64,000 bases of DNA, taken from assembly GCF_944393015.1 (NCBI RefSeq), contig NZ_CALXYQ010000001.1, positions 1 through 64,000 on the forward strand. Direction: 5' to 3'. This document shows positions 31,399 through 64,000 of this stretch, piece by piece. Source of the DNA: an uncultured Brachyspira sp. (GTDB taxonomy: Bacteria > Spirochaetota > Brachyspiria > Brachyspirales > Brachyspiraceae). Position numbers and translations under genes: made by a program. Under the pieces are notes generated by a model. That model worked only from the letters and a program-made list of their open reading frames with translations, did no database searches and was not told where the DNA came from. Positions within the stretch are counted from its first letter, which is position 1, and each line of letters opens with the position of its first letter.

Positions 31399-31708
31399 TG
31401 TATACTAAAACAAATATATTTTGTCAAAATAATTTTTTTAATTCAAAATATTTTCAGGGCTTTGCCCCCCTCCACACTTCTTTTGTTGCCACAAAGAAGC
31501 TATATCCTCGATAAACTCGGATACGCTTCGCGAAAGGCTATATTTGAACTTAAATGTAATAAATTATTTACATGTAAGACAAAATTAGTATTATTTAGTA
31601 CTAATTTTATACTTGCACTTTTTACAACTTTGACGAAGTCCGCCTATGGCGTGCGGCGGGAAAAAGTTGAATAAAAAAATTGACAAACTTAAAAATTCTC
31701 AGTATATA
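31399..31708. repeat. Dispersed promoter-ended repeat, copy R1
   Basis: 310 bp filling the gap between the grpB-like gene and polA. Left end, minus strand: TTGACA (31427-31422), 17 bases, TATACA (31404-31399). Right end, plus strand: TTGACA (31680-31685), 17 bases, TATATA (31703-31708). Inside: a GC hairpin, ACTTCTTTTGTTGCCACAAA, a GC-rich block B (31501-31537), TTACATGTAA, the TAGTACTA palindrome region, and block C (31632-31660). About 0.2 kb between 31709 and the polA terminator shows nothing else. Confidence 0.75.
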
Positions 31709-42571: not shown

Positions 42572-45235
42572 ATGCAAGAAACATTTTTTGGAAGCGAAAA
42601 AGAAGAAAATCAAAAACTCACTCCTATGATGAGGCAGTATAAAGAAATAAAAGATAAATATAATGATAGTATACTTCTTTTTAGAATGGGGGATTTTTAC
42701 GAAGTATTTTTTGATGATGCAAAAGTAGTGTCCGATATATTGGGGCTTACACTTACAAAGAGAGCTAATGTGCCTATGGCCGGAGTGCCTTATCATGCTA
42801 TAGACAATTATTTATCAAGATTAGTTAAATCAGGAATGAAGATTGCTATATGCGATCAAATGGAAGATCCAAAACTTGCAAAAGGTATAGTAAAAAGAGA
42901 GGTTACTCAGGTTATAACTCCGGGTACTATTTCAGAAAATAAATATTTAGAATCAAAAAGCAATAATTATTTAGCTTCTGTAATAGTATCAAAAAGCGAG
43001 AAAAATGCTGCATTATCTATATGCGATATTTCTACAGGAGAACTTTATGCCACAGAAATAAATTCTAATTTAGAAAATCATAATGAAGCTTTAAAAGAAA
43101 TCATTAATGAACTTACAGAAGAAATTATAAGATTCTCTCCTAAAGAGATTATGACTATAGAATCCGTTTCTGAAAGCATTATTATAAAAGAAATTCAAAA
43201 TAAATTTAATAATGTATTTTACAGCACTACCCCAAATTATACTGCAGAATATTCTTATGCATATAAAACTTTAACTAATCATTTTAAAACAGTATCATTA
43301 AAAAGTTTTGGTATAGAAGAAAAACCTCTTTTAATATCATTATTAGGATCAACTATATTTTATATACAGGAGCTTTCAAAAACTTCTCTTGAGCATATTT
43401 CAAATATTAAGCTATATAATAGAAAAGATTCTATGACTTTGGATTATGCCACAATAGCAAGTTTGGAAATATTAGAAACTATAAGAAATGATAATAATAA
43501 AATGACATTGTTTGACACAATAGACAGAACAAAAACTTCTATGGGAGCAAGATATTTAAAAAGAATAATCGTAGAACCATTATTAAATATAGAAGAAATA
43601 AATAAAAGACTTAATAATGTAGAGTTTTTCTATAAAAATCAAAAGTTTATGTATAAAATAAGAGATTTGCTTCAGGATATTGGAGATATAGAAAGACTGG
43701 CATCTAAATTGGCTTTAGGAAGGATTAACCCAAAAGAATTAGTATCATTAAAAAGATTTTTAGTAGGTTCTCTTGAAGTTGTAACAGAACTTGCAATGAA
43801 TAACTTTGAAGATGTAAACTTTGAAGAAGTTAATGATATCAAAATAATAACTGATTTGATAGAGCGTGCAATATTAGAAGACCCGAAAGTCGTTATAAAT
43901 GAAGGCGACATTATAAAAGATGATTATGATGAAACATTAAAAAAATATAATGAAGCAAGAAGAGAAGGCAGGTCTTGGATAGCAGAACTTGAATATAATT
44001 ATAAACAAGATACAGGAATAAATAATCTTAAAATAAGATACAATAATGTTATAGGCTATTATGTAGAAGTAACAAAAGCAAATGTATCATCAGTTCCAAA
44101 TGATTTTATAAAAAGACAAACATTAATAGGAAGCGAAAGATATACTACAAGTAAATTAATGGAATATGAAACTATTATAAATGAAGCTAATGAAAAAAGT
44201 TATGCCTTAGAATACAATATATTTATTGAAGTTAGAAATAAAACCAATGAATATTTAAACTCAATATTAAAAATGGCAAGAGTAATTTCCATAATAGATG
44301 TTTATTCTTCGCTTGCATGCTTAGCTAAAGAAGATAATTATATAAAACCTATAATAACAGATGACGGCATAATAGATATAAAAGACGGAAGACACCCAGT
44401 CGTAGAAGTTAATCTAAAAACAGAAAGCTTCATTCCAAATGATACATATTTAGACAATAAAAATGAACATATGCTTATAATCACAGGTCCAAATATGAGC
44501 GGTAAAAGTACATATTTAAGACAAACAGCTTTGATAGTGCTTCTTGCTCAAATAGGTTCATTCGTTCCGGCATCAAGTGCTAAAATTTCTATAGTTGACC
44601 GTATATTTACACGCGTTGGGGCAAGCGATAATATAGCAAGAGGAGAAAGTACATTTTTAGTAGAAATGAATGAAACAGCATATATTTTAAATCATTGTAC
44701 GGATAAAAGTCTTGTTATAATGGATGAAATAGGAAGAGGTACTTCAACTTATGATGGGCTTTCCATTGCTTGGGCTATAGTTGAATATTTAGTTCATGAA
44801 GAAAATAAAAAAGCTAAAACTCTATTTGCTACGCATTACCATGAACTTACTATGCTTGAAGATTTGGAAGGTGTAAAAAATTATAAAGTATTAGTTGAAG
44901 AATATAAAGATGAAATAATATTCATGAAAAAAGTTACTGAAGGAGCAGCTAAATCCAGTTATGGTATATATGCAGCAAAAATAGCCGGTGCCCCTAATAA
45001 AGTTATAAAAAGAGCCACTGAAATATTAAAAAGATTAGAAGCTGATGCAAGTGTTCAGGTAGAAAATATAGAATTAAATACTCAAAAATCTAAAGATATA
45101 CTTCCGCTTTATGAAGAGCCTAAAATAATAGAAAAAGAAAGTGAAATAGAAAAAGAAATAAAAGATTTGAATATTAATACGATAACACCTCTTGATGCTA
45201 TGAATTTAATTAATAAATGGAAGAACATGATGTGA
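42572..45235 (+). CDS. mutS: DNA mismatch repair protein MutS
   Basis: 887 residues. The mismatch-binding N terminus has LLFRMGDFYEVFFDDA (the FxE wedge region). Connector and lever domains follow, then the ATPase: Walker A TGPNMSGKSTYLRQ, Walker B SLVIMDEIGRGTSTYDGLSI, ATHYHEL. The C-terminal Lys/Glu-rich tail precedes a short dimerisation helix (PLDAMNLINKWKNM). Weak SD. No mutL in the window. Confidence 0.96.
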   Translation: MQETFFGSEKEENQKLTPMMRQYKEIKDKYNDSILLFRMGDFYEVFFDDAKVVSDILGLTLTKRANVPMAGVPYHAIDNYLSRLVKSGMKIAICDQMEDPKLAKGIVKREVTQVITPGTISENKYLESKSNNYLASVIVSKSEKNAALSICDISTGELYATEINSNLENHNEALKEIINELTEEIIRFSPKEIMTIESVSESIIIKEIQNKFNNVFYSTTPNYTAEYSYAYKTLTNHFKTVSLKSFGIEEKPLLISLLGSTIFYIQELSKTSLEHISNIKLYNRKDSMTLDYATIASLEILETIRNDNNKMTLFDTIDRTKTSMGARYLKRIIVEPLLNIEEINKRLNNVEFFYKNQKFMYKIRDLLQDIGDIERLASKLALGRINPKELVSLKRFLVGSLEVVTELAMNNFEDVNFEEVNDIKIITDLIERAILEDPKVVINEGDIIKDDYDETLKKYNEARREGRSWIAELEYNYKQDTGINNLKIRYNNVIGYYVEVTKANVSSVPNDFIKRQTLIGSERYTTSKLMEYETIINEANEKSYALEYNIFIEVRNKTNEYLNSILKMARVISIIDVYSSLACLAKEDNYIKPIITDDGIIDIKDGRHPVVEVNLKTESFIPNDTYLDNKNEHMLIITGPNMSGKSTYLRQTALIVLLAQIGSFVPASSAKISIVDRIFTRVGASDNIARGESTFLVEMNETAYILNHCTDKSLVIMDEIGRGTSTYDGLSIAWAIVEYLVHEENKKAKTLFATHYHELTMLEDLEGVKNYKVLVEEYKDEIIFMKKVTEGAAKSSYGIYAAKIAGAPNKVIKRATEILKRLEADASVQVENIELNTQKSKDILPLYEEPKIIEKESEIEKEIKDLNINTITPLDAMNLINKWKNMM

Positions 45236-45323
45236 AAATATCATATTAATTTCATTGATTTTTTTATAAATTCAATTTTAAGAGGTTGCAAGCCGAAATT
45301 ATAGTATAATAATGAGGTGTACA

Positions 45324-45647
45324 ATGACTGAACAATATTACTACAAATCAACAACTGAAAGAGAATTCGACTGCGTAAAAGATGATGAGAGATTGATAGA
45401 AACTTTGTCTGATAAAGGCTATACTGTTTATGCCATTGCACAAAAATCTAATCAATTAATACCATATCATGAACATCCTTCCGAAGAAATGGTAATAGTA
45501 TTAAGCGGTAAAGTAAGATATATAGTAGAAGAAGAAATCGTGGATTTAGAAGAAGGCGATATTATAAGGGTAAGACCGCATTCTGTGCATTCCATGATAG
45601 GAATTTCTGAAAACGGTATATCTAATTTACTTTTAGTATTTATTTAA
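45324..45647 (+). CDS. Small cupin-domain protein
   Basis: About 107 residues, single cupin_2 barrel: YHEHPSEEMVIVLSGKVRYI (motif 1, HxH...E), then EGDIIRVRPHSVHSMIG (motif 2, with His). Such proteins bind a metal and a small ligand; no substrate is suggested. Start 45324 is chosen because GAGGTG upstream overlaps the earlier ATG at 45312. It follows mutS by 88 bases. Confidence 0.82.
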   Translation: MTEQYYYKSTTEREFDCVKDDERLIETLSDKGYTVYAIAQKSNQLIPYHEHPSEEMVIVLSGKVRYIVEEEIVDLEEGDIIRVRPHSVHSMIGISENGISNLLLVFI

Positions 45648-45725
45648 TCTTTTATAAATTAATAGTTAAAAAATATAATTGTATAATATAATAATCTAAA
45701 ATTATATTACACTAAAAATTTTCAG

Positions 45726-45971
45726 TATATACCTAAACAATTATATTTTGTCAATTTTTGCTTTTTTATGAATGTAAATAATATTTTTTTATAAAATAAA
45801 ATATTATTTTATATCGATCAAATATGTTTTATATGTAAGATAAATTATTAATTTTTGTAAAATAGTGAGTAATCAGCCGCACGTATAGTTGGCTATCCAT
45901 AATAATTTGCAATACTGTGCGGAAAGCCCATATGGTGAATATTTGACAAACTTAAAAATTTTCAGTATATA
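45726..45971. repeat. Dispersed promoter-ended repeat, copy R3a
   Basis: 246 bp with decayed interior. Left end, minus strand: TTGACA (45754-45749), 17 bases, TATATA (45731-45726). Right end, plus strand: TTGACA (45943-45948), 17 bases, TATATA (45966-45971). A partial right end of a still older copy abuts at about 45703-45725. Its right TATATA is shared with R3b. Confidence 0.65.
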
Positions 45972-46230
45972 CCTAAACAACTATAATTTGTCAAAAAAAT
46001 AGTTTTTATGTTTTTATTATTTCGGGGACTAGCCCCCGAACCCCCACTTCTTTTGTTGACACAAAGAAGCAAAAAGGCTATATTTTAACTTAAATTTGAT
46101 TAATTATATTACATGTAATACAATTTTAGTACGATTTAATACTAATTTTATACTTGCACTTTTTGGTTCTTTTTGCGGCGGGAAAAAGAACAATAAAAAA
46201 ATTGACAAACTTAAAAATTTTCAGTATACA
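45966..46230. repeat. Dispersed promoter-ended repeat, copy R3b
   Basis: 265 bp. Left end: TTGACA (45994-45989, minus), 17 bases, TATATA (45971-45966). Right end: TTGACA (46202-46207), 17 bases, TATACA (46225-46230). This is the plain form, without the GC-rich blocks B and C found in R1, R4 and R5: it has TTCGGGG/CCCCGAA, ACTTCTTTTGTTGACACAAA, AAAGGCTATATTTTAACTTA and TTTTTGCGGCGGGAAAAAG. The stretch 45648-46314 contains no gene. Confidence 0.75.
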
Positions 46231-46314
46231 CTAAATATATTTCAAATGTAAAAATTGAAATGGATTATTTTTAATATAAAAGTATTAATTAAAAAATTTA
46301 ATACAAATACTAAA

Positions 46315-46833
46315 TTACTTGAAATCTTTATAAAGCATACTAGGCTGAACATCAGTATTATTCTGGTATTTGCTGCTTGTATACTCTTCATATTCTCCGT
46401 CTATTGTATGATAATAAAGCTGAGCTATTTCAACCCCTGGATATATTATTATAGGCTTTATACAGAAAATTTCTAAAGTCCAGTATCCTGCAAATCCTAC
46501 ATCTCCGAAACCAGCAGTAATATGAATAAATATTCCAAGCCTTCCTATAGATGATCTGCCCTCTATCATAGGAACAAATTTTTTTGTATTAGTATATTCT
46601 AAAGTTCTGCCTAAATATAATTCATTAGGCTTTAATTGATAACCGCTTTCTGGTATTATTATTTCCTCTACTTCATTTGGTTTTTTCATATCAAGAACAT
46701 TATCTTTATATACCAAAAGTTTATCATGAAGTTTTACATTATAACTATTTGAATTTAATTGTTTTCTATTGAATGGTTCTATTATTATATCTTTACCGAG
46801 ATTTTTTTCTATTTCAAGCCCTGACAAAATCAT
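46315..46833 (-). CDS. dcd: dCTP deaminase
   Basis: 172 residues, trimeric dUTPase-like fold. EGRSSIGRLGIFIHITAGFG (about 91-110) holds the catalytic Glu and nucleotide contacts; GFAGYWTLEI follows. The enzyme deaminates dCTP to dUTP, or directly to dUMP if bifunctional; the sequence seen does not decide. SD AGGAAAA. It is divergent from pgi and its 3' end faces the right-end promoter of R3b. Confidence 0.9.
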   Translation of the reverse strand: MILSGLEIEKNLGKDIIIEPFNRKQLNSNSYNVKLHDKLLVYKDNVLDMKKPNEVEEIIIPESGYQLKPNELYLGRTLEYTNTKKFVPMIEGRSSIGRLGIFIHITAGFGDVGFAGYWTLEIFCIKPIIIYPGVEIAQLYYHTIDGEYEEYTSSKYQNNTDVQPSMLYKDFK

Positions 46834-46933
46834 TTATTTATTTTCCTGCAATTTATTTTAAATTATTTCACTTTATTTTTCGGTATTATTATAGTATAAT
46901 TTATCGAGCAAAATAAAATGAGGGAGTTATTAA

Positions 46934-48265
46934 ATGCTATCTATAAATTATAAAAACGTTTTAGGATTTTTACAAGAGCATGAATTGGAATATCTTGCTG
47001 AGCATGCTAAATATGCAAATGAACTTCTTGAAAACAAAAAAGGTGCCGGAAATGACTTTTTAGGCTGGGTTAATTTACCAACTGAAGCTTTGAAAATGGT
47101 TAAAGAAATCGATGAATTAGCTAAAGAAATAAGAGAAAATGCTGAAGTATTAGTATCTGTTGGTATAGGCGGTTCTTATTTAGGCGGTAAAGCAGTAATT
47201 GAATCATTTTTGAATCCTTTCTCTCAAGCTAAAAAAGGAAATACTCAGGTTGTATATGCCGGTCATAATATGAACGGAGAATATTTCAAACATTTATTAG
47301 ATTATTTAGAGGGAAAAGACTTCTATATTAATGTTATATCAAAAAGCGGTACTACAACTGAACCTGCTATAGCTTTCAGAATGTTAAAAGAATATGCTGA
47401 AAAAAGATATGGTAAAGACGGTGCTGCTAAAAGAATAATCGCTACTACAGATAAAGCAAAAGGAGCTTTAAAAACATTATCTACAGAAAATAAATATAGA
47501 ACTTTTGTAATACCTGATGATGTAGGCGGAAGATATTCAGTTCTCACTCCTGTAGGACTTATACCTATAGCTGTTGCTGGAATCAATATCGAAGAGTTTG
47601 TTAAAGGCTTTGATTCTATGGCAAAAATAACTAAAGAAATGGATTATAAGAAAAATCCTTCTATGTTATATGCTATGATAAGAAATGCTCTTTATAATAA
47701 AGGATTCAGCACAGAAATAATGGTTAACTATATACCTAGAATGCATTATGTATCTGAATGGTGGAAACAATTATACGGTGAAAGTGAAGGTAAAGATAAA
47801 AAAGGTATATTCCCTGCTTCTGTTGATTTCTCTACTGACTTACACTCTTTAGGTCAATTCATACAAGACGGTAAAAGAGGATTATTTGAAACAGTTATAA
47901 GAGTTGATAAAGAAGATATTGACTTAAAAATGAAAAAAGAAGATTCTGATTTGGACGGACTTAATTATTTAGATGGAAAATCTTTACATGAAATTAACAA
48001 ATCAGCATTAGAAGCTACAGTTCTTGCCCATGTTGATGGAGGAGTACCAAATATCATAATAGATTTAGATAAAATTACTCCATTCACTATTGGAGAGCTT
48101 TTGTACTTCTTTGAAAAAGCATGCGGAATATCTGGACATATACTTGGAGTTAATCCATTCGATCAGCCCGGTGTAGAAGCATACAAGAAAAATATGTTTG
48201 CTATGCTTGGTAAAAAAGGTTATGAAGAAATGGGTAAAACTTTAAGAGCTAGATTAGAAAAATAA
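46934..48265 (+). CDS. pgi: Glucose-6-phosphate isomerase
   Basis: 443 residues, the short bacterial form. SIS domains: VSVGIGGSYLGGKAVIESF (sugar-phosphate site), VISKSGTTTEPA, DVGGRYSVLTPVGL, and GESEGKDKKGIFP plus FDQPGVEAYK near the C terminus, carrying catalytic Glu and Lys. Links glucose from the PTS and glycosidase locus to glycolysis. SD GAGGGAG; terminator at 48292-48333. Confidence 0.96.
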   Translation: MLSINYKNVLGFLQEHELEYLAEHAKYANELLENKKGAGNDFLGWVNLPTEALKMVKEIDELAKEIRENAEVLVSVGIGGSYLGGKAVIESFLNPFSQAKKGNTQVVYAGHNMNGEYFKHLLDYLEGKDFYINVISKSGTTTEPAIAFRMLKEYAEKRYGKDGAAKRIIATTDKAKGALKTLSTENKYRTFVIPDDVGGRYSVLTPVGLIPIAVAGINIEEFVKGFDSMAKITKEMDYKKNPSMLYAMIRNALYNKGFSTEIMVNYIPRMHYVSEWWKQLYGESEGKDKKGIFPASVDFSTDLHSLGQFIQDGKRGLFETVIRVDKEDIDLKMKKEDSDLDGLNYLDGKSLHEINKSALEATVLAHVDGGVPNIIIDLDKITPFTIGELLYFFEKACGISGHILGVNPFDQPGVEAYKKNMFAMLGKKGYEEMGKTLRARLEK

Positions 48266-48291
48266 TTATTATTGATTATAATATTATTAAT

Positions 48292-48333
48292 AAGGCTGAT
48301 AGTAAATTGTAAATAAAATTTATTATCAGCTTT
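48292..48333. terminator. Terminator after pgi
   Basis: AAGGCTGATA/TATCAGCTTT (one G-T), extended by inner AT pairs, T-rich afterwards; shared with the converging methyltransferase gene. Confidence 0.75.
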
Positions 48334-48350
48334 AATTTTTTATATATCTA

Positions 48351-48971
48351 TTATTTTTGTCCTACAACAGAATATATAAAACCTTTTATTTGTTTTTTAT
48401 CTATTACTTTAAATCCGTTTTTTATCATTAGTTTAGATATACCTTCTTTGTTTTCTGTATGACAATCTCCGCTTTTCATTATCTTAAATAAAATATGATT
48501 GTCTATCCAAGCTGCAATTCCGCCAACTCCTGTATCTGATAATATATAAAGTCCTCCTTTTTTGAGAACTCGATAAGCCTCTCTCATAGCCTCATTAGGA
48601 TATGGATAATGATGAAAACTTTGTATACATGTTACTATATCAAAAGCATCATCATCAAAAGGAAGTTTATTGGCACTGCCCAAAATAAATTGAGCATTCT
48701 CAATATTTTTAGATTTTGCAATCTTTATCATCTCTTCTGATAAATCAAGTCCATAAAATTCTGCCATTTCTTTATCTTTTAGCATATTTATTAAATAACC
48801 TGTTCCAGAGCCTATATCTAGAAGTTTATTATAATCTATATTTTTTAAATATTCTGACACATAATTGCAGCTTATTTTTCCGTATTTAGAATAATAAATA
48901 GTATCTTTTTCATCATAAATACTAGCTTGCCTATTGAAATGTTCTTTTGATAATTTTTCATAATCTTTCAT
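48351..48971 (-). CDS. Class I SAM-dependent methyltransferase
   Basis: About 206 residues, Methyltransf_11 type. Motif I LLDIGSGTGYLINML (about 43-57), GLDLSEEMIKIAK, motif III-like FDDDAFDIVTCIQSFHHYP, then LKKGGLYILSDTG. Start 48971 is preferred: GGAAAA precedes it and the N terminus MKDYEKLSKEHFNRQA fits the family, while the earlier ATG at 49013 lies inside a palindrome. Substrate unknown (small molecule or quinone-like). Confidence 0.83.
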   Translation of the reverse strand: MKDYEKLSKEHFNRQASIYDEKDTIYYSKYGKISCNYVSEYLKNIDYNKLLDIGSGTGYLINMLKDKEMAEFYGLDLSEEMIKIAKSKNIENAQFILGSANKLPFDDDAFDIVTCIQSFHHYPYPNEAMREAYRVLKKGGLYILSDTGVGGIAAWIDNHILFKIMKSGDCHTENKEGISKLMIKNGFKVIDKKQIKGFIYSVVGQK

Positions 48972-48993
48972 AAATATTTTCCATACATGAATA

Positions 48994-49013
48994 ATGTTAG
49001 TATATTCTAACAT
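48994..49013. promoter_or_regulatory. Palindrome upstream of the methyltransferase gene
   Basis: ATGTTAG-TATATT-CTAACAT, 7 bp arms and 6-base spacer, about 22 bases upstream of the chosen start. Possible repressor site; it would also lie in the leader RNA as a hairpin. Confidence 0.35.
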
Positions 49014-49185
49014 TTAAAATAATTAAATCAATAATAAATTTTCACTAATATTTTCATATATTCAATTATGTAAATATAAATTATTTTGAAAAAAACACAT
49101 GATTTCATATTATTTTTAGATTGTATTTATTTCTATTTATTGTATAAACTGTTTTATATAGCAATAATTTTTAAAGGAAAACATT

Positions 49186-49872
49186 ATGAAAAAAATATTA
49201 ATACTCTTTACTATTGTGATATCTTTTATATCAATAATATCATGCTCTAATCAATCAGAAAAACAAAATAATAATTCACAGCAAAATGCACAAAAAATGA
49301 TAAAAACAGGAGAATGGGATATTAATCCTAAACAAATAAATGAAGTAGATGAAAATATAAAAACAATTTTTGATAATACTGTAAAGAATTTATTAGGCGT
49401 AAAAAGAGAATTAATGCTTTATTTAGGAAATCAAACAGTTAATGGTATAAATTATGCTTTTATATGCCGAAGCGAAATAACATATCCTTCAGCATTGCCT
49501 TATTATGAAATTATTATATGCAATGTATCTCCTTCAAATGAAATATCTATAGTAAAATTAGAAAAGATAATAGAAAGCAGTCAGAGCAGTGTCGGCGGAA
49601 TAGTATGCACATCATCCGATGAAGCTAAAATTAATATATCAAATTCTAAAGAAGCTAATGATATTATTAAAATATTTAAAAATGCTGTTAAAGATATTAA
49701 AGATATAAAATATACTCCAGAACTTTATGCTGCAAGCCAAGTTGTAAAAGGAATCAATTATTATTTTATAGCTCATGCAGAACTTAATGATGGAACTCAT
49801 TCAATAAAATTACTAACAATAAATAATTTTACAGAATCAAGCGAAGTCATTGAAGTAAAAAATATTTTATGA
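49186..49872 (+). CDS. Lipoprotein with two cystatin-like repeats
   Basis: 228 residues. Lipobox IISC (Cys20), Gln/Asn-rich linker to about 40, then two similar domains: LMLYLGNQTVNGINYAFICR (about 87-106) and ELYAASQVVKGINYYFIAHA (about 183-202). Each has the cystatin Q-x-V-x-G loop followed by the Asn-Tyr strand. Cystatins block papain-like proteases with this loop. The lipid anchor would place it in the envelope. Fold and motif are read by eye; inhibitory function is inference. SD AAAGGA. Confidence 0.6.
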   Translation: MKKILILFTIVISFISIISCSNQSEKQNNNSQQNAQKMIKTGEWDINPKQINEVDENIKTIFDNTVKNLLGVKRELMLYLGNQTVNGINYAFICRSEITYPSALPYYEIIICNVSPSNEISIVKLEKIIESSQSSVGGIVCTSSDEAKINISNSKEANDIIKIFKNAVKDIKDIKYTPELYAASQVVKGINYYFIAHAELNDGTHSIKLLTINNFTESSEVIEVKNIL

Positions 49873-49986
49873 TATTAAGAATTCAGAAGTTATGTAAACT
49901 CATTATTAAAAATATTATAGTCAATTAACATAACAATGCAGATTTATGATATCCTTAACCGATAATAATCTGTAAGAGGTATCAAC

Positions 49987-51657
49987 ATGAGAAACATAAG
50001 ATATAAATATTTGTTTGTTATTTTATCGGTAGTATTCATTTCTACTTTAGAAAATTTATATGGTCAAATCGCCGTAAATACCTATTCTTTAGAAATTACT
50101 ACTAACGATATAGAAATAGTAAAGTTTATAAATGGATATCAGCTTTATTTAAAGAAAAAGCCGAATGTATACGGATATAGAATACAATTAAAAGGACAAG
50201 ACGGTTTTAATTCTTATCTTTATATTGATAATAGCGGCAATACTAACTCTATAGTCAGAATAAGAGAAAGCGATTATCATTATAAACTTGGGGAAGTATT
50301 TAAAGTATTTATTCCGCAAAATGTATATTTGGATAGAAGAAACAATAATTCTTCATTTACTTTAAGGGATAATATTACTCTAATTTTAGAGGCCTATAAT
50401 ATCAACAATGAGATTTTAATAAATAATGAAATAATATTAAAGGCAAATAATGCTGAAATTTCAACACCTACTATAACACTTAGAAATGTTGAAAAAGAAG
50501 GCGATCTATATGCATTTTATCTATACTACTCCGGAGGCGATAACGGAGAATATGCATTTTATGTAAGAGAAGGAAGAACAAATACATCATATAAATTAAT
50601 AGATACTTCTTATGGAAATACCGGAAATTATGACAGCAGCGGTATTGTATTAGAAGATACTTTTAATAGATCATTGGGTAAAAAACTTTATATAAAAGCA
50701 TATTTTAAACAGCTGCCTGAGGATAGATATTTATCTTTCAATGTATTTAATACTCAGGGTGAAAGCTTTACTTATCCTATAGATTATGTTATAGAAACTA
50801 CAAATGTACAAAAGGAAGCAGTACCTCCTCAAATGCCTAGCGGAGGAAATGAAGGCCCTGTACAAATAAGACCTAGAGATAGAGTGATAGAAACTTCTAC
50901 AAATACCATAATAGTAAAAAAAGATGCTCAGCCTCAAAAAGAAAATAATGAGATAAAAATTTTATCTTCTGCTAATATTGTTGAAAAACCTGTAGAAGAA
51001 GAAAAAGCTATAGAAGAACCTGAAGTAAAAGAAAATTTCAATTATAACTTGGAAGCTATGGATAATTTAAATAATGCTAGTAAATCATTCAATACTCCTA
51101 ATAATTATGTAAAAGATAAAGAAGAATTGAGCGATAAAGTTAAAAGCATTATTAAAAGATACAAAGATGAAGGAAGTATCGATTTAGTTGTAGTGCTAGA
51201 TACAACAGAAAGTATGCATCCTTATTTGAAAACCATAAAAAGAGATATAAGAGGTATGATTACAGAATTATTCGATAATCATAAATATTCAAGAGTAGGT
51301 TTTTTGCTTTACAGAGATGTTAAAGATACTTATCTTACAAAAAAAATAGACTTCAGCGATAATATTAACTTTATAAATAGAGAAGTTAATTATTTCTATG
51401 CAGCAGGAGGCGGAGATAAAGCAGAACCTATGTATGAAGCTTTGCAGGAAGCATTAGAAACATTTGATTATATTAATCAGAAAAGATTGATAATAGTTCT
51501 TACAGATGCACCTGCTAAAGTTATTGGAAGAGCTAATTTGGATTTGAATTTATCTACAGCTAAAGAAAAAAATGTTACTGTAGAATTTATATTAGCTTCA
51601 GAAATAGAGGAAGAAGAAGATCTTTCTGATGATTATTTATACTTCTTTAATTTCTAA
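49987..51657 (+). CDS. Secreted VWA-domain protein
   Basis: 556 residues. Signal peptide (about 1-28, ending LYGQ), two beta-rich domains (about 30-140 and 165-270), a disordered Glu/Pro/Lys linker (about 275-385), then a von Willebrand A domain (about 395-556) with MIDAS DTTES and AGGGDKAEPMYEAL and LTDAP supplying the other metal ligands. Probably a surface or periplasmic adhesion or scaffold protein. SD AGAGG. Follows the cystatin-like lipoprotein by 114 bases; ends at the terminator 51680-51711. Confidence 0.85.
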   Translation: MRNIRYKYLFVILSVVFISTLENLYGQIAVNTYSLEITTNDIEIVKFINGYQLYLKKKPNVYGYRIQLKGQDGFNSYLYIDNSGNTNSIVRIRESDYHYKLGEVFKVFIPQNVYLDRRNNNSSFTLRDNITLILEAYNINNEILINNEIILKANNAEISTPTITLRNVEKEGDLYAFYLYYSGGDNGEYAFYVREGRTNTSYKLIDTSYGNTGNYDSSGIVLEDTFNRSLGKKLYIKAYFKQLPEDRYLSFNVFNTQGESFTYPIDYVIETTNVQKEAVPPQMPSGGNEGPVQIRPRDRVIETSTNTIIVKKDAQPQKENNEIKILSSANIVEKPVEEEKAIEEPEVKENFNYNLEAMDNLNNASKSFNTPNNYVKDKEELSDKVKSIIKRYKDEGSIDLVVVLDTTESMHPYLKTIKRDIRGMITELFDNHKYSRVGFLLYRDVKDTYLTKKIDFSDNINFINREVNYFYAAGGGDKAEPMYEALQEALETFDYINQKRLIIVLTDAPAKVIGRANLDLNLSTAKEKNVTVEFILASEIEEEEDLSDDYLYFFNF

Positions 51658-51679
51658 TATATGTTGATAATAATGAATG

Positions 51680-51711
51680 AAAAGCCCTTACCAAATAAGG
51701 TTTGGGCTTTT
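51680..51711. terminator. Bidirectional terminator
   Basis: AAAGCCC/GGGCTTT with inner pairing, A-rich one side and T-rich the other; between the converging VWA and PAP2 genes. Confidence 0.75.
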
Positions 51712-51718
51712 ATTATAT

Positions 51719-52309
51719 TTATGGGTTATCGAATTTATTTATGATTGGAATTTGATTTAATCTGTATTCAATATTCAATCTCTTAAAAATAAAATAAGTT
51801 AAACAAGATACGCTTATCCCAATGAATGCCCCAAATACTACATCGCTAGGATAATGAACTACTAAATAAATTCTTGAAAAGCCTATTAATGCTGCAATCA
51901 ATACAGCTATAAAACTATATTTCTTATTAAAATAAAGAAAAATAGGAAAAAGCACAGCAAATGATGCAGTAGTATGTGAGGAAGGACATGAAAATGAAGT
52001 TTCAAGATGCTTTCCAACAGCAATCCAATATTCATTATAAACGGGATCTGTAAAAGGACGTTCTCTTGCTATTAATGGTTTTAATATAATAGCTCCTAGC
52101 AATATAGATATGAATAAACTTACAGCCATATTAATACCGCAGACTCTAGTCCTTTTTATGAATATTAATATAATTGTAAATACTATCAAAGGAATTGATT
52201 CTCCTAAATATGTTATAGATGAAAAAAACAAATCTAATATTTGATAATTATTATGTAAACTATGAGCAAATTCTATTATAGTTTTATCGAATATATTTAT
52301 TATCTGCAT
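51719..52309 (-). CDS. PAP2-family phosphatase
   Basis: 196 residues, about five membrane helices. The three PAP2 motifs are intact: KPLIARERPF (KxxxxxxRP), CPSSHTTASF (PSGH-like) and SRIYLVVHYPSDVVFG (SRxxxxxHxxxD). These enzymes dephosphorylate undecaprenyl-PP or phosphatidate at the periplasmic face. SD AGGAA. The left-end promoter of repeat R4 (-10 at 52387-52382) faces this gene with a 73-base leader. Confidence 0.9.
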   Translation of the reverse strand: MQIINIFDKTIIEFAHSLHNNYQILDLFFSSITYLGESIPLIVFTIILIFIKRTRVCGINMAVSLFISILLGAIILKPLIARERPFTDPVYNEYWIAVGKHLETSFSCPSSHTTASFAVLFPIFLYFNKKYSFIAVLIAALIGFSRIYLVVHYPSDVVFGAFIGISVSCLTYFIFKRLNIEYRLNQIPIINKFDNP

Positions 52310-52381
52310 TTACTATTCCTATAATTAATTTTTTAATAAAACAATTATATTATAAATATGTAATAAATTTTTTAGTAATAG

Positions 52382-52781
52382 AGTATACCTAAATAACTAT
52401 ATTTTGTCAAAAATTATTTTATTATTTTTATTATTTGTGGGGACTAGCCCCACCGCTCTGCGTACTTCGTAACACCCCCACTTCTTTTGCGACTGAAGGA
52501 AGTACCTGCGACTGAAAGGAGTACCTGACGAAGTCCACTGTAAGTGTAGGTATGGTATTGCCACAAAGAAGCTATATCCTCGACAGGCTCGGATACGCTT
52601 CGCGAAAGGCTATATTTTATCTTAAATTTAATGAATTACCTTACATATAAGACAATTTTAATATGATTTAGTACTAATTTTTACACTTGCACTTTTTGGT
52701 TCTTTGACGAAGTCCGCCTGTGGCGTGCGGCGGGAAAAAGAACAGTAAAAAATTGACAAACTTAAAAATTTTCAGTATATA
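52382..52781. repeat. Dispersed promoter-ended repeat, copy R4
   Basis: 400 bp, the largest complete copy. Left end, minus: TTGACA (52410-52405), 17 bases, TATACT (52387-52382). Right end, plus: TTGACA (52753-52758), 17 bases, TATATA (52776-52781). GTGGGG/CCCCAC hairpin near the left. The ACTTCTTTTG...CACAAAGAAGC hairpin is split by about 70 extra bases containing the repeated unit GCGACTGAAGGAAGTACCTG (about 52489 and 52508). Block B at 52573-52610 and block C at 52705-52734. Local GC is far above the host. 52310-52849 holds nothing else except the terminator at 52788. Confidence 0.78.
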
Positions 52782-52787
52782 TAAAAA

Positions 52788-52822
52788 ATAGGAAAGGAGT
52801 AATAATTTCCCCTTCCCTATTC
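52788..52822 (-). terminator. Terminator of the alpha-glucoside operon
   Basis: GGAAAGG and CCTTCC arms around an AT-rich loop, downstream of the GH4 gene on the minus strand. Confidence 0.45.
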
Positions 52823-52849
52823 TAATATCATATAATTATTAAAAAATAA

Positions 52850-54205
<1,356 letters not shown>

Positions 54206-54211
54206 TTATTA

Positions 54212-55795
54212 TTATTCACTAGTTTTTAAAAGTTCTTCAAATTTAGCTTTTACTTGAGGAACTGATAAACCTACTATTATTTGTATAGCATTTCCTTTTT
54301 TAACAAGTCCATGAGCACCGCCTTCTTTGAATGCATCTACATCTTTTACAAGATTCACATCTTTAACTGTTACTCTCAATCTAGTAGCACAATTAGTAAC
54401 ATGCTCTATATTATTTCTTCCGCCCAATGCCTCTAAATAAATAGCAGCCTGCTCATCAAAACTTGATTTTTTAGCTTCTCTTTCTTTATAATCTTTTTTG
54501 GTATATAGTTTAGTTTTGCTGTCTCCTCTTCCCGGAGTAGGAATATTAAATTTCAATATTAAAAATCTAAATACAACAAACCATATACCAGTAAATATAA
54601 GCCCTATAACAATATTTGCTATAACCATAGATGAATGATTTTTCATAGCAAATATCCAGTTTTGCGTTATGAAAGCTATTAATCCTGATCCATAGTTTCC
54701 TACTACGCCTCCAACTACATATAATACTGTAGCTAAACTAGCAGCCAAAATAGAATGCACTAAAAATAAGAAAGGAGATATAAATAAGAATGTAAACTCT
54801 AAAGGTTCAGTAATACCTACAAGTATTGATGTTAATGTTACAGGTATAAGTAAAGCAGCCATTCTTTCACGATTCTCTTTATTAGCACAGAAATAAATTG
54901 CTAAAGCAAGTCCGGGAGCTCCGAATACTTTAGAGTTTCCATGCAAAGCAAATCCGCCTTCAGGGAATAATTGTTTAAGAGGCTCAACCATATTTGAAAA
55001 TTCAGCAACATGTTTTATCCAATAAGGTTCTATACCTTCAGGTACAACAGCTGGCCCGTAAATAAAAGGTCCATAAATGAAATGGTGAAGTCCTGTAGGT
55101 ATTAATATTCTTTCTAAAAAAGTATATATAAATACTCCTGCTCCGCCTGCACTGGCTAAGAAGCTCTGCATTGAAGCTATCAAAGCCTGTATTTTAGGCC
55201 ATATCAAACATGTTAAGAATGCTAAAACCAATACAACAAAGAAACCTATAATATGTACAAAAGATGTTCCTTGGAATACTCCCAAATAATCAGGAAGTTT
55301 TGTTTCATAGAATCTATTATGAATAATAGTAATAACTACTCCTATAAATATAGCACCTATTATGCTTGTATCTAATGTTTTAATACCTGCTATTAAAGCT
55401 AAACCGCTTACTCCGCCTGCTTCCTGAGTGAAATCAACTCCAAACTGAGGACCCCAAAATTTAAGTATAGCAGCTATAAAATAATTATATGATAAGTAAC
55501 ATATCAAAGTTGCTAATATTGCTCTTTCAGGCGCCATTTTTGAAAGACCTATAGGAATACCTAAACAGAAAAATAAAGGCATATTTCTGAATATAGTCCA
55601 AGCACCTTCTTCTATTATAAATACTAACTTGTAGAATGTTCCATCAGGATTAGCCAAATTACCTACTATAGACTGATCCTTAAAAATAATAGTTAATCCT
55701 ACAACTAAACCGGAAAACGAAAAAAGTAATACCGGTACAAACATGGCCGCCCCAAATTTTTGGAAACTAGCCCTTAAATCAATATTGGCAAACAT
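54212..55795 (-). CDS. PTS alpha-glucoside transporter subunit EIICB
   Basis: 527 residues. EIIC (about 1-430) with ten or so membrane segments, including LERILIPTGLHHFIYGPF and GITEPLEFTFLFISP, the glucose/maltose (GlvC/MalX) subfamily marks. EIIB (about 450-527) has the phosphorylated Cys in VTNCATRLRVTV. There is no EIIA domain, so a shared Crr-type EIIA elsewhere must donate phosphate. It imports and phosphorylates maltose-like sugars for the GH4 enzymes on either side. SD GAGGGGG. Confidence 0.9.
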   Translation of the reverse strand: MFANIDLRASFQKFGAAMFVPVLLFSFSGLVVGLTIIFKDQSIVGNLANPDGTFYKLVFIIEEGAWTIFRNMPLFFCLGIPIGLSKMAPERAILATLICYLSYNYFIAAILKFWGPQFGVDFTQEAGGVSGLALIAGIKTLDTSIIGAIFIGVVITIIHNRFYETKLPDYLGVFQGTSFVHIIGFFVVLVLAFLTCLIWPKIQALIASMQSFLASAGGAGVFIYTFLERILIPTGLHHFIYGPFIYGPAVVPEGIEPYWIKHVAEFSNMVEPLKQLFPEGGFALHGNSKVFGAPGLALAIYFCANKENRERMAALLIPVTLTSILVGITEPLEFTFLFISPFLFLVHSILAASLATVLYVVGGVVGNYGSGLIAFITQNWIFAMKNHSSMVIANIVIGLIFTGIWFVVFRFLILKFNIPTPGRGDSKTKLYTKKDYKEREAKKSSFDEQAAIYLEALGGRNNIEHVTNCATRLRVTVKDVNLVKDVDAFKEGGAHGLVKKGNAIQIIVGLSVPQVKAKFEELLKTSE

Positions 55796-55900
55796 TTTAT
55801 ATCCCCCTCATTTTAAATTTTTATATCATAATTCAGAGCTTTATAATCTCTAAAATATTTGCATCCTCCTTTATAAAACGCAGACGAAAATAAAAATAAC

Positions 55901-57259
55901 TTATTTTAAATAATCTAAATATGGTTTTTGAGAATCTATCATTCTGTCCACCATCTCTTCAATATTTTTACATACATTAACAACAGGGTTAGCAAGTATA
56001 GCCTGTATAGCATATTCTTTTTTATGATGTATAGCAGCCTCAGCTGTTAAATCGTATACGCTTACATAATTTCTTAAAAGTGATAAATAACCTTTAGGAA
56101 CATTATTTAATTTTACGCCTTTAACTCCGTCTTTGCTTATTTCAGCAGGAACTTCAACTGCTATCCAGCTAGGCAAATCTTCTATTAATCCATCATTCAA
56201 AATATTAACAGCCTCTTCTACATAGCTTTCATTTGTAACAATACCATTTATTATGCTTGAAGCTCTTTCTTTTACTCTTAACTCTATTTTAGGTTCAGCT
56301 TTAGAAAGTACAGTTCTGTATAATTCATAGAAATCTAATATTCCTCTATGATCAACAACGTCCCAAGCCCAGCCTATATATTCACCGAAATGGCTGTCAA
56401 CTGTTATAGGCAAAAGATTATATTTTTCTAATATCACTTTTAATAATCTTCTGTCAGCCCATATAAATTCGCCTTTTAATTTATCTTCTATAGAGTGATC
56501 AAAACTTTCTGTTTTTGAAAATGCATTATTTGCTTTAGCGTATTTTAATAAATCACTATAGCCTACTTCATGCTCAAAATAACCATGTGCATTTTTTAAT
56601 ACATCAGGATATAAATCCTTTCCTGTTTTTTTATCTTTAATTTCTAATAAGCAGCTGAAATGATTAAGTCCTCCTGCTTTAATATCAAATGAGTCATAAT
56701 TCATTCTTAAAATTTTTGGAAGCCATTTATGAAGCCAGCCTATCTCATGGCACATACCAATAAATTTAGCATTAGGATAAACTCTTTTTACAGCAGTACA
56801 TATAGCAGTCATAGGATTTGAGAAATTGAATATATAAGCATTAGGACATATATCCATAGCATCTTTTACTATATCCAAAATAGGCGGAATGATTCTTAAA
56901 GAGTGAAATACTCCTCCAGGTCCTCCATTTTCTCCATAAACCTGATGAATACCATACTGCATAGGTATTTTCCAATCTTCATCCCATAATTGAAATCTAT
57001 CTCCTACCTCTATTGAACTTATAATAAATTCAGCATTTTTAAAAGCCTCTTTCCTATCTGTAGTGGCATCAACAGTAAAATTTAATTTATTAGACTCAAT
57101 AAACTCTTTAACATAATCATATACTTTTTTCAAAGCATTAGGGTTAATATCAAGTAAAGTTATATGAGAGCCTTCTAAAGACTTAGTAGAGAAAATATCC
57201 CCAAGCATATCACATCCAAATTGTGCACTTCCTGCACCTACCAAAACAAATTTAATCAT
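55901..57259 (-). CDS. GH4 alpha-glucosidase-like enzyme
   Basis: About 452 residues. N-terminal NAD motif VLVGAGSAQFGCDML; the GH4 diagnostic motif here is CHEI (GMCHEIGWL), unlike the CDMP of its neighbour, placing it with unphosphorylated-substrate alpha-glucosidases (AglA type); GGLNHFSC carries the metal His. Two GH4 enzymes in one operon suggest handling of both phosphorylated and free alpha-glucosides. Start 57259 is used because AGGAG overlaps the earlier ATG at 57265. First gene of the operon. Confidence 0.85.
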   Translation of the reverse strand: MIKFVLVGAGSAQFGCDMLGDIFSTKSLEGSHITLLDINPNALKKVYDYVKEFIESNKLNFTVDATTDRKEAFKNAEFIISSIEVGDRFQLWDEDWKIPMQYGIHQVYGENGGPGGVFHSLRIIPPILDIVKDAMDICPNAYIFNFSNPMTAICTAVKRVYPNAKFIGMCHEIGWLHKWLPKILRMNYDSFDIKAGGLNHFSCLLEIKDKKTGKDLYPDVLKNAHGYFEHEVGYSDLLKYAKANNAFSKTESFDHSIEDKLKGEFIWADRRLLKVILEKYNLLPITVDSHFGEYIGWAWDVVDHRGILDFYELYRTVLSKAEPKIELRVKERASSIINGIVTNESYVEEAVNILNDGLIEDLPSWIAVEVPAEISKDGVKGVKLNNVPKGYLSLLRNYVSVYDLTAEAAIHHKKEYAIQAILANPVVNVCKNIEEMVDRMIDSQKPYLDYLK

Positions 57260-57365
57260 TTCCATCTCCTTTTATTTATAAAATTGAATATTAATTAAAT
57301 ATTCAGCCTATAAAATATCTATAGTTATTATTATATACAAATATTTTACAATATCAATAAAATGA

Positions 57366-57409
57366 TACTAAAAAATCATTTTTTTAGTACTATATAATCA
57401 TTTTTTAGT
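57366..57409. promoter_or_regulatory. Candidate operator between lacI-type gene and GH4 operon
   Basis: TACTAAAAAATCATTTTTTT then AGTA (57366-57389) is an inverted repeat (ACTAAAAAA/TTTTTTAGT). A further half-site TCATTTTTTAGT lies at 57398-57409. Lying in the 300-base divergent gap beside a LacI gene, it is the best candidate for its binding site. Confidence 0.5.
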
Positions 57410-57561
57410 TAAAGATATAGATTTTTTATATAAAATATACTATTATTAATATTAATTACTATTTTTGTTAATATTTATTATATTTTTAATATCATTATTA
57501 TGATATTGTTTATTATAAAAAAATGTAATATAATATAAGAAATCATTACAGGACTGGTTCA

Positions 57562-58536
57562 ATGGTACAGAAAGAGAAAGTTGAGAATATTGCTAAAATT
57601 TTAAATATTGCAGAAACAACAGTAAAGAGATTTTTTTATTCTCCTGAAAAACTGCATAGTGATACTTTTAGAGAGATAATGTCTGTTTTGGCTGAATACT
57701 ATCCTGAAGATTTAAGATCAATAGTAAAATCAGACTATAGGGATATATTATTTATATTAAGAGATCATAATTTGATGGTAGCTTCTGATATAATTAAATA
57801 TTTACAGAAAATAACTTTAAAATATAATATTTCAATAAGACTATATGAAAATAATGAAAATATACCTTTGAATATACTTATTAATAAAAACAAAAAGAAA
57901 TGGAGCGATATTAGAGGTATTATAAGTTTATCAACTGAGACCGAAGAAATTACAAATGACTTTTTAATTCCTACAGTATTTTTAAATATGCCTCAGCAGG
58001 AGTACGGATTAAATATAGATGTTAATGATTATTTAGGCGGTAAATTAGCCATAGAACATTTATATGAAAATAATTGGAAAAATACTGCTTTTGTAGGACA
58101 TTATGAATTAAGCGGCGATATAGTAGAAAGATACGAAGGAGTAAAAACTGCATGCGAAAATCTTAATATAGATTGCAAACTGTTTACCACATATAATTTT
58201 TCTATGGAAGAATCATACAATATAACAAAAAAAATTTTACAGGATAAAACAATAGATTCTATTTTTTATTTTTGCGATCAAATGGCTATAGGCGGAATTA
58301 AAGCTATAAATGAATATGGATATGAAATGGGTAAAGATATAGGTGTAATAGGATTTGACAATTTAGAGATATCTGAATTTTTAGGATTAAGCTCTATGGA
58401 TCAGAAATTGTATGAAAAAATTCTATACTCTATAGAATATATTTTATTCGGAAACGGAAAACCTTTTACAGAGAAATCTCCTTTAATAAGTTATACTCCC
58501 GAGGTAGTAGCCAGAAAAAGCTCCTTAAGAAGATAA
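57562..58536 (+). CDS. LacI-family transcriptional regulator
   Basis: 324 residues. N-terminal HTH (about 6-50: VENIAKILNIAETTVKRFF, SPEKLHSDTFREIM), with a divergent second helix compared with the usual VSxxTVSR. The periplasmic-binding-like ligand domain (about 60-324) includes VNDYLGGKLAIEHLYENN, FYFCDQMAIGGIKAINEYG and IGVIGFDNLE. Divergent from the alpha-glucoside operon, so it probably represses it until an alpha-glucoside or its phosphate binds. SD AGGA. Confidence 0.87.
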   Translation: MVQKEKVENIAKILNIAETTVKRFFYSPEKLHSDTFREIMSVLAEYYPEDLRSIVKSDYRDILFILRDHNLMVASDIIKYLQKITLKYNISIRLYENNENIPLNILINKNKKKWSDIRGIISLSTETEEITNDFLIPTVFLNMPQQEYGLNIDVNDYLGGKLAIEHLYENNWKNTAFVGHYELSGDIVERYEGVKTACENLNIDCKLFTTYNFSMEESYNITKKILQDKTIDSIFYFCDQMAIGGIKAINEYGYEMGKDIGVIGFDNLEISEFLGLSSMDQKLYEKILYSIEYILFGNGKPFTEKSPLISYTPEVVARKSSLRR

Positions 58537-58559
58537 AATAGGAAGATAAAATATTATTA

Positions 58560-59225
58560 CTAAAATAAATCCTTAATAATATTAGGATATTTAATATCAT
58601 TTATTTTTGATATTCCTGCATTATTATCAAATTCTGTTATATGAACTTTTATGGGATCTATTTGTCTTGTAATATACTTTATAACATTAGATGAAACAAA
58701 TACATCTTTTTTTACATTGATAATTATAAAAGGTATTTTAAATCCTCTAGTATGAAATAATTCCACCTGCTCTAAAGATGAATGTATAACATTATAATCA
58801 TATTCTACAATAGGTATTATATGAATTTCATTTTCTTTTTCTATATCAAGCATTAAATCCATAAAATTATAATTCTCTTTTATAGGCGAATATAAAGATA
58901 ATGATTCAAACACCATATAATCATAAGTATTATTACTTTCATCTATAAGATCGGTAATATCTCTTTCATCTATTTTTGCATTAATACTGTGAAGAGGAGA
59001 TATATTTCCATTGGTAGCATAGGAAACAAATATTTCTGAAGCTTTTAAAGAAGTTGTATTTTTTATATATTCAGGGTCGAATAATTTATTATCTCTTACT
59101 TCCATTACAAAAGGTTTATAATAGCATACACTTTTATCAAGCATCTTTAATGATGATACTATATGAGAAGAAATATAAGTCTTACCAACATGACTCTTAT
59201 CAGATATAACACAAAACAGCTTCAT
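58560..59225 (-). CDS. BioD-like P-loop ATPase
   Basis: 221 residues. N-terminal MKLFCVISDKSHVGKTYISS is a deviant Walker A of the dethiobiotin-synthetase/SIMIBI type, followed by VCYYKP (BioD-like Lys-Pro). The Gly-rich EGAGG loop of true BioD is replaced by FESLSLYS, so biotin synthesis is doubtful. No other bio genes nearby. It starts 17 bases after the GH57 gene ends, hence probably co-transcribed with it. SD AAAGGTAG. Function unassigned. Confidence 0.55.
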   Translation of the reverse strand: MKLFCVISDKSHVGKTYISSHIVSSLKMLDKSVCYYKPFVMEVRDNKLFDPEYIKNTTSLKASEIFVSYATNGNISPLHSINAKIDERDITDLIDESNNTYDYMVFESLSLYSPIKENYNFMDLMLDIEKENEIHIIPIVEYDYNVIHSSLEQVELFHTRGFKIPFIIINVKKDVFVSSNVIKYITRQIDPIKVHITEFDNNAGISKINDIKYPNIIKDLF

Positions 59226-59242
59226 CTACACTACCTTTAAAA

Positions 59243-61363: not shown

Positions 61364-61492
61364 GATAATGCCCTGTTTTATTGAAATTTATTACTTATAA
61401 TTTCGTAATAATAGAAAAATTAATTAACATAATTCTATAATAAATAAGTCTTTTTGTAAAGCATCTTTTTTACAGTATTACTTCAAACAGTA

Positions 61493-61571
61493 TTGACTTT
61501 TTACTTTTTTTATTTATCATATTCGATTATCAAAAAAACTCATTTTTTAAAAATGATGTATTTTTGATAAA
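61493..61571 (+). promoter_or_regulatory. glmS promoter candidate and leader hairpin
   Basis: TTGACT (61493-61498), 16 bases, TATCAT. Downstream, ATCAAAAA (61529-61536) and TTTTTGAT flank an inner CATTTT/AAAATG, giving a two-part AT hairpin that ends about 28 bases before the glmS ATG. No glmS-ribozyme core is present. Confidence 0.4.
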
Positions 61572-61595
61572 ATCTTATTTAAGGACTTTTTAATT

Positions 61596-63425: not shown

Positions 63426-63440
63426 ATAATACAAAAATTA

Positions 63441-63510
63441 AAAATCTTGTATTTTATTAAATATTTATTTTAGCTTATTTATTTTTTCAAAATACAGGAT
63501 TTTTTATTTA
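63441..63510 (+). terminator. Terminator after glmS
   Basis: AAAATCTTGTATTTT (63441-63455) and AAAATACAGGATTTT (63489-63503) form a 15 bp stem (one G-T) over an AT loop, then a T-run. Confidence 0.75.
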
Positions 63511-63576
63511 ACTAAATAAATAATTATTATAATTGTATTTTTTTATTAATTGATTTATTATTAACATAATTATTAG

Positions 63577-63942
63577 AATATACTTAAACAACTATATTTT
63601 GTAAGAAATAATTTTTTTTAAATTGGAATATCTGCAAGGCTTTGCTGCGAAGCACACAAACGTGCCACCCCCCTACTTCTTTTGCGACCGAAGGAAGTGT
63701 CTGTGGTATTGCCACATGCGAAGCCTGCCTTCGGTGAAGGAATATATTTGAGCTTAAACTAATAATTTATATTACATGTAAAATAATTTTAGTATTATTT
63801 AGTACTAATTTTATACTTGCACTTTCGAGAAGCGTATCCGAGTTTATCGAGGATATAAGGTTCTTTGACGAAGTCCGCAGAGCGTATGCGGCGGGAAAAA
63901 GAACAACAAAAAATTGACAAACTTAAAAATTTTTAGTATATA
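63577..63942. repeat. Dispersed promoter-ended repeat, copy R5
   Basis: 366 bp. Left end, minus: CTTACA (63605-63600), 17 bases, TATATT (63582-63577), somewhat decayed. Right end, plus: TTGACA (63914-63919), 17 bases, TATATA (63937-63942). Block B is present but inverted and moved (63826-63857), block C at 63867-63894. The right TATATA is shared with the left end of a further copy running out of the window at 64000. No gene in 63426-64000. Confidence 0.75.
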
Positions 63943-64000
63943 CCTAAACAACTATATTTTGTCAAAAATAAATTTATATTTTTGTTTTTATATCTGGGGC

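Follow-up and report, generated by a model that had tools for sequence, protein, structure and literature searches.

A symmetric 52-base motif in Brachyspira is the seam between transposase-less IS630-type elements inserted next to one another at TA

The 52-base motif TTGACA-N17-TATATA-N17-TGTCAA, present in a window of 64,000 nucleotides (the whole stretch of DNA analysed) from an uncultured Brachyspira sp., is the seam formed where one transposase-less IS630-type element has inserted in the TA just outside another. As a landing site the seam is self-renewing and in repeated use across Brachyspira, and its formation is mostly ordinary transposon behaviour. We consider it very probable, close to certain, that the seam is a junction of two non-autonomous MITEs of IS630/Tc1-mariner type and arose by TA insertion into an end box. 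According to the mechanism that we propose, an IS630-family transposase, presumably acting in trans, would insert a MITE at TA, preferably at the TA in the middle of TATATA(C), and duplicate that TA. Since the termini of the elements themselves consist of TA followed by C, insertion at such a box would create a new TATATAC-like box on either side, and elements arriving later could insert into the end boxes of those already present, generating tandem arrays with a single TATATA between facing ends. A self-renewing target box would provide a simple and testable reason both for the tandem arrays and for the presence of different elements at one spot in sister species.

The index seam, between the elements R3a and R3b (Table 1), reads TTGACA-AACTTAAAAATTTTCAG-TATATA-CCTAAACAACTATAATT-TGTCAA, with spacers of 17 bases and 0 mismatches, exactly the symmetric junction that a preliminary description of this DNA had proposed, and the window contains a second exact copy. 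Shuffled windows yielded a mean of 0.17 matches, even allowing up to 3 mismatches; the motif is confirmed as real and is far from chance. A strict 52-bp IUPAC consensus of the seam matched 22 places in the element's own genome, 62 in G015, 20 in G024, 17 in G009 and 13 in G025, and its reversed control matched 0 places in the same genomes. The left half of the seam is the R end of R3a (TTGACAAACTTAAAAATTTTCAGTATA; ~164 genome copies with up to 3 mismatches allowed), the right half the L end of R3b (TATATACCTAAACAAYTATATTTTGTCAA; ~173 genome copies), so that each end type is present in about 165-175 copies in the own genome. The halves are imperfect rather than identical inverted repeats, the L end being TATATACCTAAACAAYTATATTTTGTCAA and the R end TTGACAAACTTAAAAATTTTCAGTATATA. 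R3a and R3b lie head-to-tail and differ in their interiors; with their end boxes included they cover 45726-45971 and 45966-46230, respectively. The predicted RNA fold of R3b is stronger than that of shuffled sequences (z -3.5), and a search for Rfam families in 44000-64000 found none.

Table 1. Positions of elements, seams and target sites in the window, and of the decayed IS630-family element
Feature	Position	Strand	Remarks
L..R family element with its end boxes	31399..31708	+	
Relic R end (CTAAAAATTTTCAG) left of R3a	45711..45725	+	common to G009, G025, G007
TA target copy, left of R3a	45728..45729	.	register from filled/empty pairs
R3a, 238-bp MITE (TACCTAAAC...TTTTCAGTA)	45730..45967	+	interior with GCCGCACGTATAGTTGGC...GTGCGG
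Seam R3a/R3b	45943..45994	.	TTGACA-N17-TATATA-N17-TGTCAA, exact match; 22 genome-wide
Shared TATATA box	45966..45971	.	register from filled/empty pairs; 6-bp spacer in 30/31 seams
Terminal TA of R3a	45966-45967	.	first third of shared TATATA box
Target-site TA	45968-45969	.	middle of shared TATATA box
Terminal TA of R3b	45970-45971	.	last third of shared TATATA box
R3b, 257-bp MITE	45970..46226	+	CGGGGACTAGCCCCCG and two more hairpins in the interior
TA target copy, right of R3b	46227..46228	.	then CA = changed TA
L..R family element	52382..52781	+	G009 orthologous copy 95-96% identical
Family element, first of second tandem pair	63577..63942	+	
Second symmetric seam	63914..63965	.	partner element from 63937 to 64249, beyond window end
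Decayed IS630-family element, 1,056 bp	L132:758-1813 (G016:C8, Brachyspira sp. G79)		R and L ends with 1 and 3 mismatches

The 101 distinct units examined are about 160-450 bp long, are mostly of the L..R form with some L..L or R..R, and carry several related interiors. Each spans TACC...CAGTA and is bounded by imperfect terminal inverted repeats of 27-29 bp, in keeping with the ~25-30 bp of the IS630/Tc1-mariner group. Being short, multi-copy, intergenic, without a transposase gene and bounded by terminal inverted repeats of a known IS family, they qualify as MITEs. Hundreds of these intergenic elements are present in Brachyspira genomes, and the literature that we searched had nothing about them: no relevant report on Brachyspira IS630 elements or MITEs was found, nor any paper combining Brachyspira and IS630. 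With exact boundaries, a parent and a TA rule, the elements become annotatable, some assembly breaks and 'promoter' calls are explained, and markers for strain typing become available.

The insertion rule was deduced from pairs of filled and empty sites. From each filled site the empty allele was predicted as x1x2-TA-x5x6, and this allele was found exactly at four loci, G025_76442 (compared with G007 and G009), G025_97419, G025_115796 (with G009) and G007_164047 (with G009 and G025); two further loci, G000_194144 and G000_157565, deviate from it by 1 substitution. Since no single 4-bp register fits all filled/empty pairs, the target duplication is the 2-bp TA and every element begins and ends with TA. 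Insertion at TA with duplication of TA, as in IS630/Tc1-mariner elements, was thus observed directly at empty sites, and again in a seam at 68289 described below. Target duplications of 4 bp (TATA) and 6 bp (TATATA) were considered and rejected on account of differing left and right flanks (AATATA/TATATA; TATATA/TATAAT). Of the earlier suggestion that insertion is TATA- or TA-targeted, the TA reading, with a 2-bp duplication, is supported. Among clean empty alleles, no excision footprints of the form x1x2-TATATA-x5x6 were seen. Because the elements start and end with TA, the index TATATA is made up of the last TA of R3a, a single target TA and the first TA of R3b.

The target preference was likewise read directly from the flanks. 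Outward of nearly every end lies TATA, followed by the pair TA in 68% of 193 non-tandem ends and by TT, AT, CA or AA in the others; after TATA-TA, C is found in 36% (background 10%) and A at +5 in 72%. The preferred target, TATATAC followed by T/A and then by an A-rich stretch, resembles the elements' own ends, TATATACYKAA. Within the window, GTATATAC occurs seven times, and element ends account for 4/7. In a model weighted by this preference, which is rough in that positions are assumed to be independent, 40-70% of insertions would be expected at element ends, as against <1% for insertion at any TA. In 30/31 seams among all sequences compared, 6 bp separate the two facing ends, as expected from use of the central TA of TATATA.

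One seam could be caught forming. In G000, the genome to which the window belongs, two facing elements at 67853-68572 meet at 68289 in an R|R seam with the same symmetry, and G009 carries at this locus the first element alone, 98% identical. Removing a 275-bp element and one TA from the G000 sequence restores the single-element allele of G009, with 60/60 identical bases around the site and 807/823 in total, which shows that one element inserted into the end box of another. The comparison of empty and filled sites between relatives that the preliminary description had called for thus returns exactly the allele of a sister species and, together with the empty sites, bears out its statement that the elements are joined without duplication beyond the shared box. 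The same description had named ordinary segmental duplication as the finding that would overturn an insertional origin. Origin of the tandem pairs from an existing element, through segmental (tandem) duplication or unequal recombination, is very improbable, although head-to-tail seams predominate (26/31) and the members of one pair, 63577/63937, agree in 93% of aligned columns. Neighbouring interiors are no closer to each other than those of random element pairs (similarity about 0.38-0.73, against a mean of 0.51), which argues that the arrays are not duplications; for the index seam, duplication is refuted by the different interiors of R3a and R3b, and for 68289 by the seam being an insertion relative to G009. 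What does count against insertion into end boxes is the orientation of the seams, 26 head-to-tail, 4 R|R and 1 L|L (n=31; p = 2e-4), a bias not expected from insertion in random orientation unless selection also acts. The head-to-tail excess may stem from counterselection of long palindromes.

The history of the index locus, which lies between a cupin-like gene and dcd, points to repeated occupation of one spot. The slot holds one R3a-like element in G009, an R3c-type element in G025 and G007, an R3c-type element with other ends in G015 and an inverted R3b-type element in G023, and it is empty of elements in G022 and G019. The flanks are 93-98% identical among G000, G009, G025 and G007, and the interiors 74-81% identical in aligned columns, except for G025 versus G007 (98%). 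The relic R end to the left of R3a appears to be the trace of an older, lost element. Since flanks are conserved, interiors differ and this relic end is present, the slot has evidently been reused, as far as sequence comparison can tell. Across the same four genomes, the same TATATA box carries clearly different elements at ~10 loci and the same element at ~3. Different occupants of the same box are sometimes inverted relative to each other, and their flanks are mostly 93-98% identical. In at least one case (148577), an odd base in the L end is common to both occupants, which points to a single insertion whose interior was altered. Turnover at the boxes may thus reflect reuse, insertion of a neighbour followed by loss, or gene conversion. 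It could also be, though we find this rather unlikely, that the TATATA end box is inherited as a docking site and exchanges its occupants through insertion beside it, excision or replacement, with excision regenerating TATATA. If so, Brachyspira would possess a self-addressing array system, with fixed genomic slots and cargo (the interiors) turning over.

Different occupants in one box would also be expected if excised circles with joined R and L ends recombined site-specifically into the end box, in the manner of cassette exchange by a serine or tyrosine recombinase rather than of DDE transposition. The seam would then be the joined-ends junction of the circle, and the head-to-tail bias would agree with it. 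We nevertheless hold this to be highly unlikely, because the insertion sites are many unrelated TAs that share only a weak consensus, because TA duplication is a hallmark of IS630 and because the parent element encodes a DDE_3 domain, not a recombinase.

A search for PF13358 (DDE_3), which is the catalytic domain of IS630, in 26 Brachyspira genomes returned a single match (E 4.8e-10), in G016, on a contig of Brachyspira sp. G79. It lies in a decayed IS630-family element (Table 1) between the same ends as those of the MITEs, so the MITE family is, judging from these sequences, IS630-derived. The transposase gene of this element is broken, with disrupted reading frames in which the IS630/Tc1 motif LPSYSQNLNLIE is still readable; its HTH matches are weak and below the cut-off. 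A second relic lies ~11 kb upstream. In the own genome no IS630 transposase was found by PF13358, parent DNA or protein, and no contig ends inside the parent element there. An intact parent copy was found neither in the four genomes that were compared in most detail nor in the named genome collection, where the only representatives are the two relics of Brachyspira sp. G79. G007 and G009, both complete or nearly so, likewise had no DDE_3 match, and the insertions in these two and in the own genome nevertheless differ from those of sister species, which counts against our explanation. However, contig boundaries cut through the same IS630 element in four other species (L134, L135, L136 and L137, from G023, G015, G021 and G024), where an open N- or C-terminal part of the parent protein adjoins an element end. 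This suggests that these four genomes contain intact multi-copy IS630 elements that the assemblies could not place. On L134, TTGTCA-N17-TATAAT stands upstream of an ATG, ~10 nt from the start codon, possibly giving a leaderless transposase mRNA.

The TTGACA of the seam also belongs to the terminal inverted repeat carried by the parent IS, and this suffices to explain its conservation. The preliminary description had instead read the 52 bp as a pair of opposed promoters with a single -10 element, and one could suppose that the seam was selected as a bidirectional promoter, that is, as two sigma-70 promoters with a common -10 and outward transcription. TTGACA and the 17-bp spacing do occur on both strands, and where the target supplies AT, a perfect consensus TTGACA-N17-TATAAT results, as it does at 15/193 ends (T6 is present in ~23%). 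We regard selection as a promoter as improbable all the same. In the sigma-70 test, a comparison with the consensus only, the -35 of the seam is perfect on both strands but the -10, TATATA, matches at 4/6 positions, the conserved T6 not among them. The region contains 10 promoter-like sites where 7.7 are expected, which is background, and the genes flanking the index locus are convergent, so that promoters there would point at gene 3′ ends. More generally, the elements are enriched between convergent genes (22/53, against 133/874 of all gaps, Fisher p = 9e-6, with genes defined by a simple ORF rule and some loci contributing from two or more species); gaps between divergent genes show no such excess. 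The claim of two opposed promoters thus comes down to a consensus match. Outward promoters may exist at some ends, and they do not account for the seam motif, which we attribute to insertion of one MITE in the end box of another.

Among described elements, the closest kind is RUP (Repeat Unit of Pneumococcus) of S. pneumoniae, an AT-rich 107-bp MITE with ~110 copies and IS630-Spn1 as its proposed mover, whose terminal inverted repeats resemble those of an IS630-family element, which has target duplications and which is over-represented between convergent genes (PMC3049150). IS630-like terminal inverted repeats, target duplication and the convergent-gene bias are common to RUP and the Brachyspira elements. 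RUP is, however, a simple 107-bp unit, whereas the Brachyspira elements are longer, have several interior types and, unlike RUP, frequently form tandem arrays via the end box, their parent IS being represented by relic or contig-end fragments only. For ISY100 of Synechocystis, an IS630/Tc1-mariner element, the available part of the report describes duplication of TA, 24-bp imperfect terminal inverted repeats, cleavage 2 nt inside the 5′ ends and a TATATA junction upon excision in vitro (PMC2170065). This junction implies ends that start with TA, as in the Brachyspira elements. ISY100 differs in that it is an autonomous, active element with demonstrated in vitro transposition, and that part of the report mentions no self-targeting arrays. 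As regards the targeting of own ends, the closest system is IS30, which makes a 2-bp duplication, inserts in hot spots or beside its own inverted repeats and forms IR-IR junctions (PMC9333248). The 2-bp duplication and the IR-IR junctions are alike, but IS30 moves by copy-out-paste-in via circles with a transposase of another family, and the end preference in Brachyspira, unlike that of IS30, follows from the resemblance of the ends to the target. Membership of the IS30 family was considered and rejected, as the parent relic is of the DDE_3/IS630 type.

The R3b-type interior itself varies in size. In 52382-52781 and 31399-31708, compared with 45966-46230, the loops and spacers of its GC-rich hairpins are enlarged by additional short repeats, GACGAAGTCCGCCTGTGGCGTGCGGCGGG and TATATCCTCGATAAACTCGGATACGCTTCGCGAAAGG, which makes for small palindromic repeats nested in one another.
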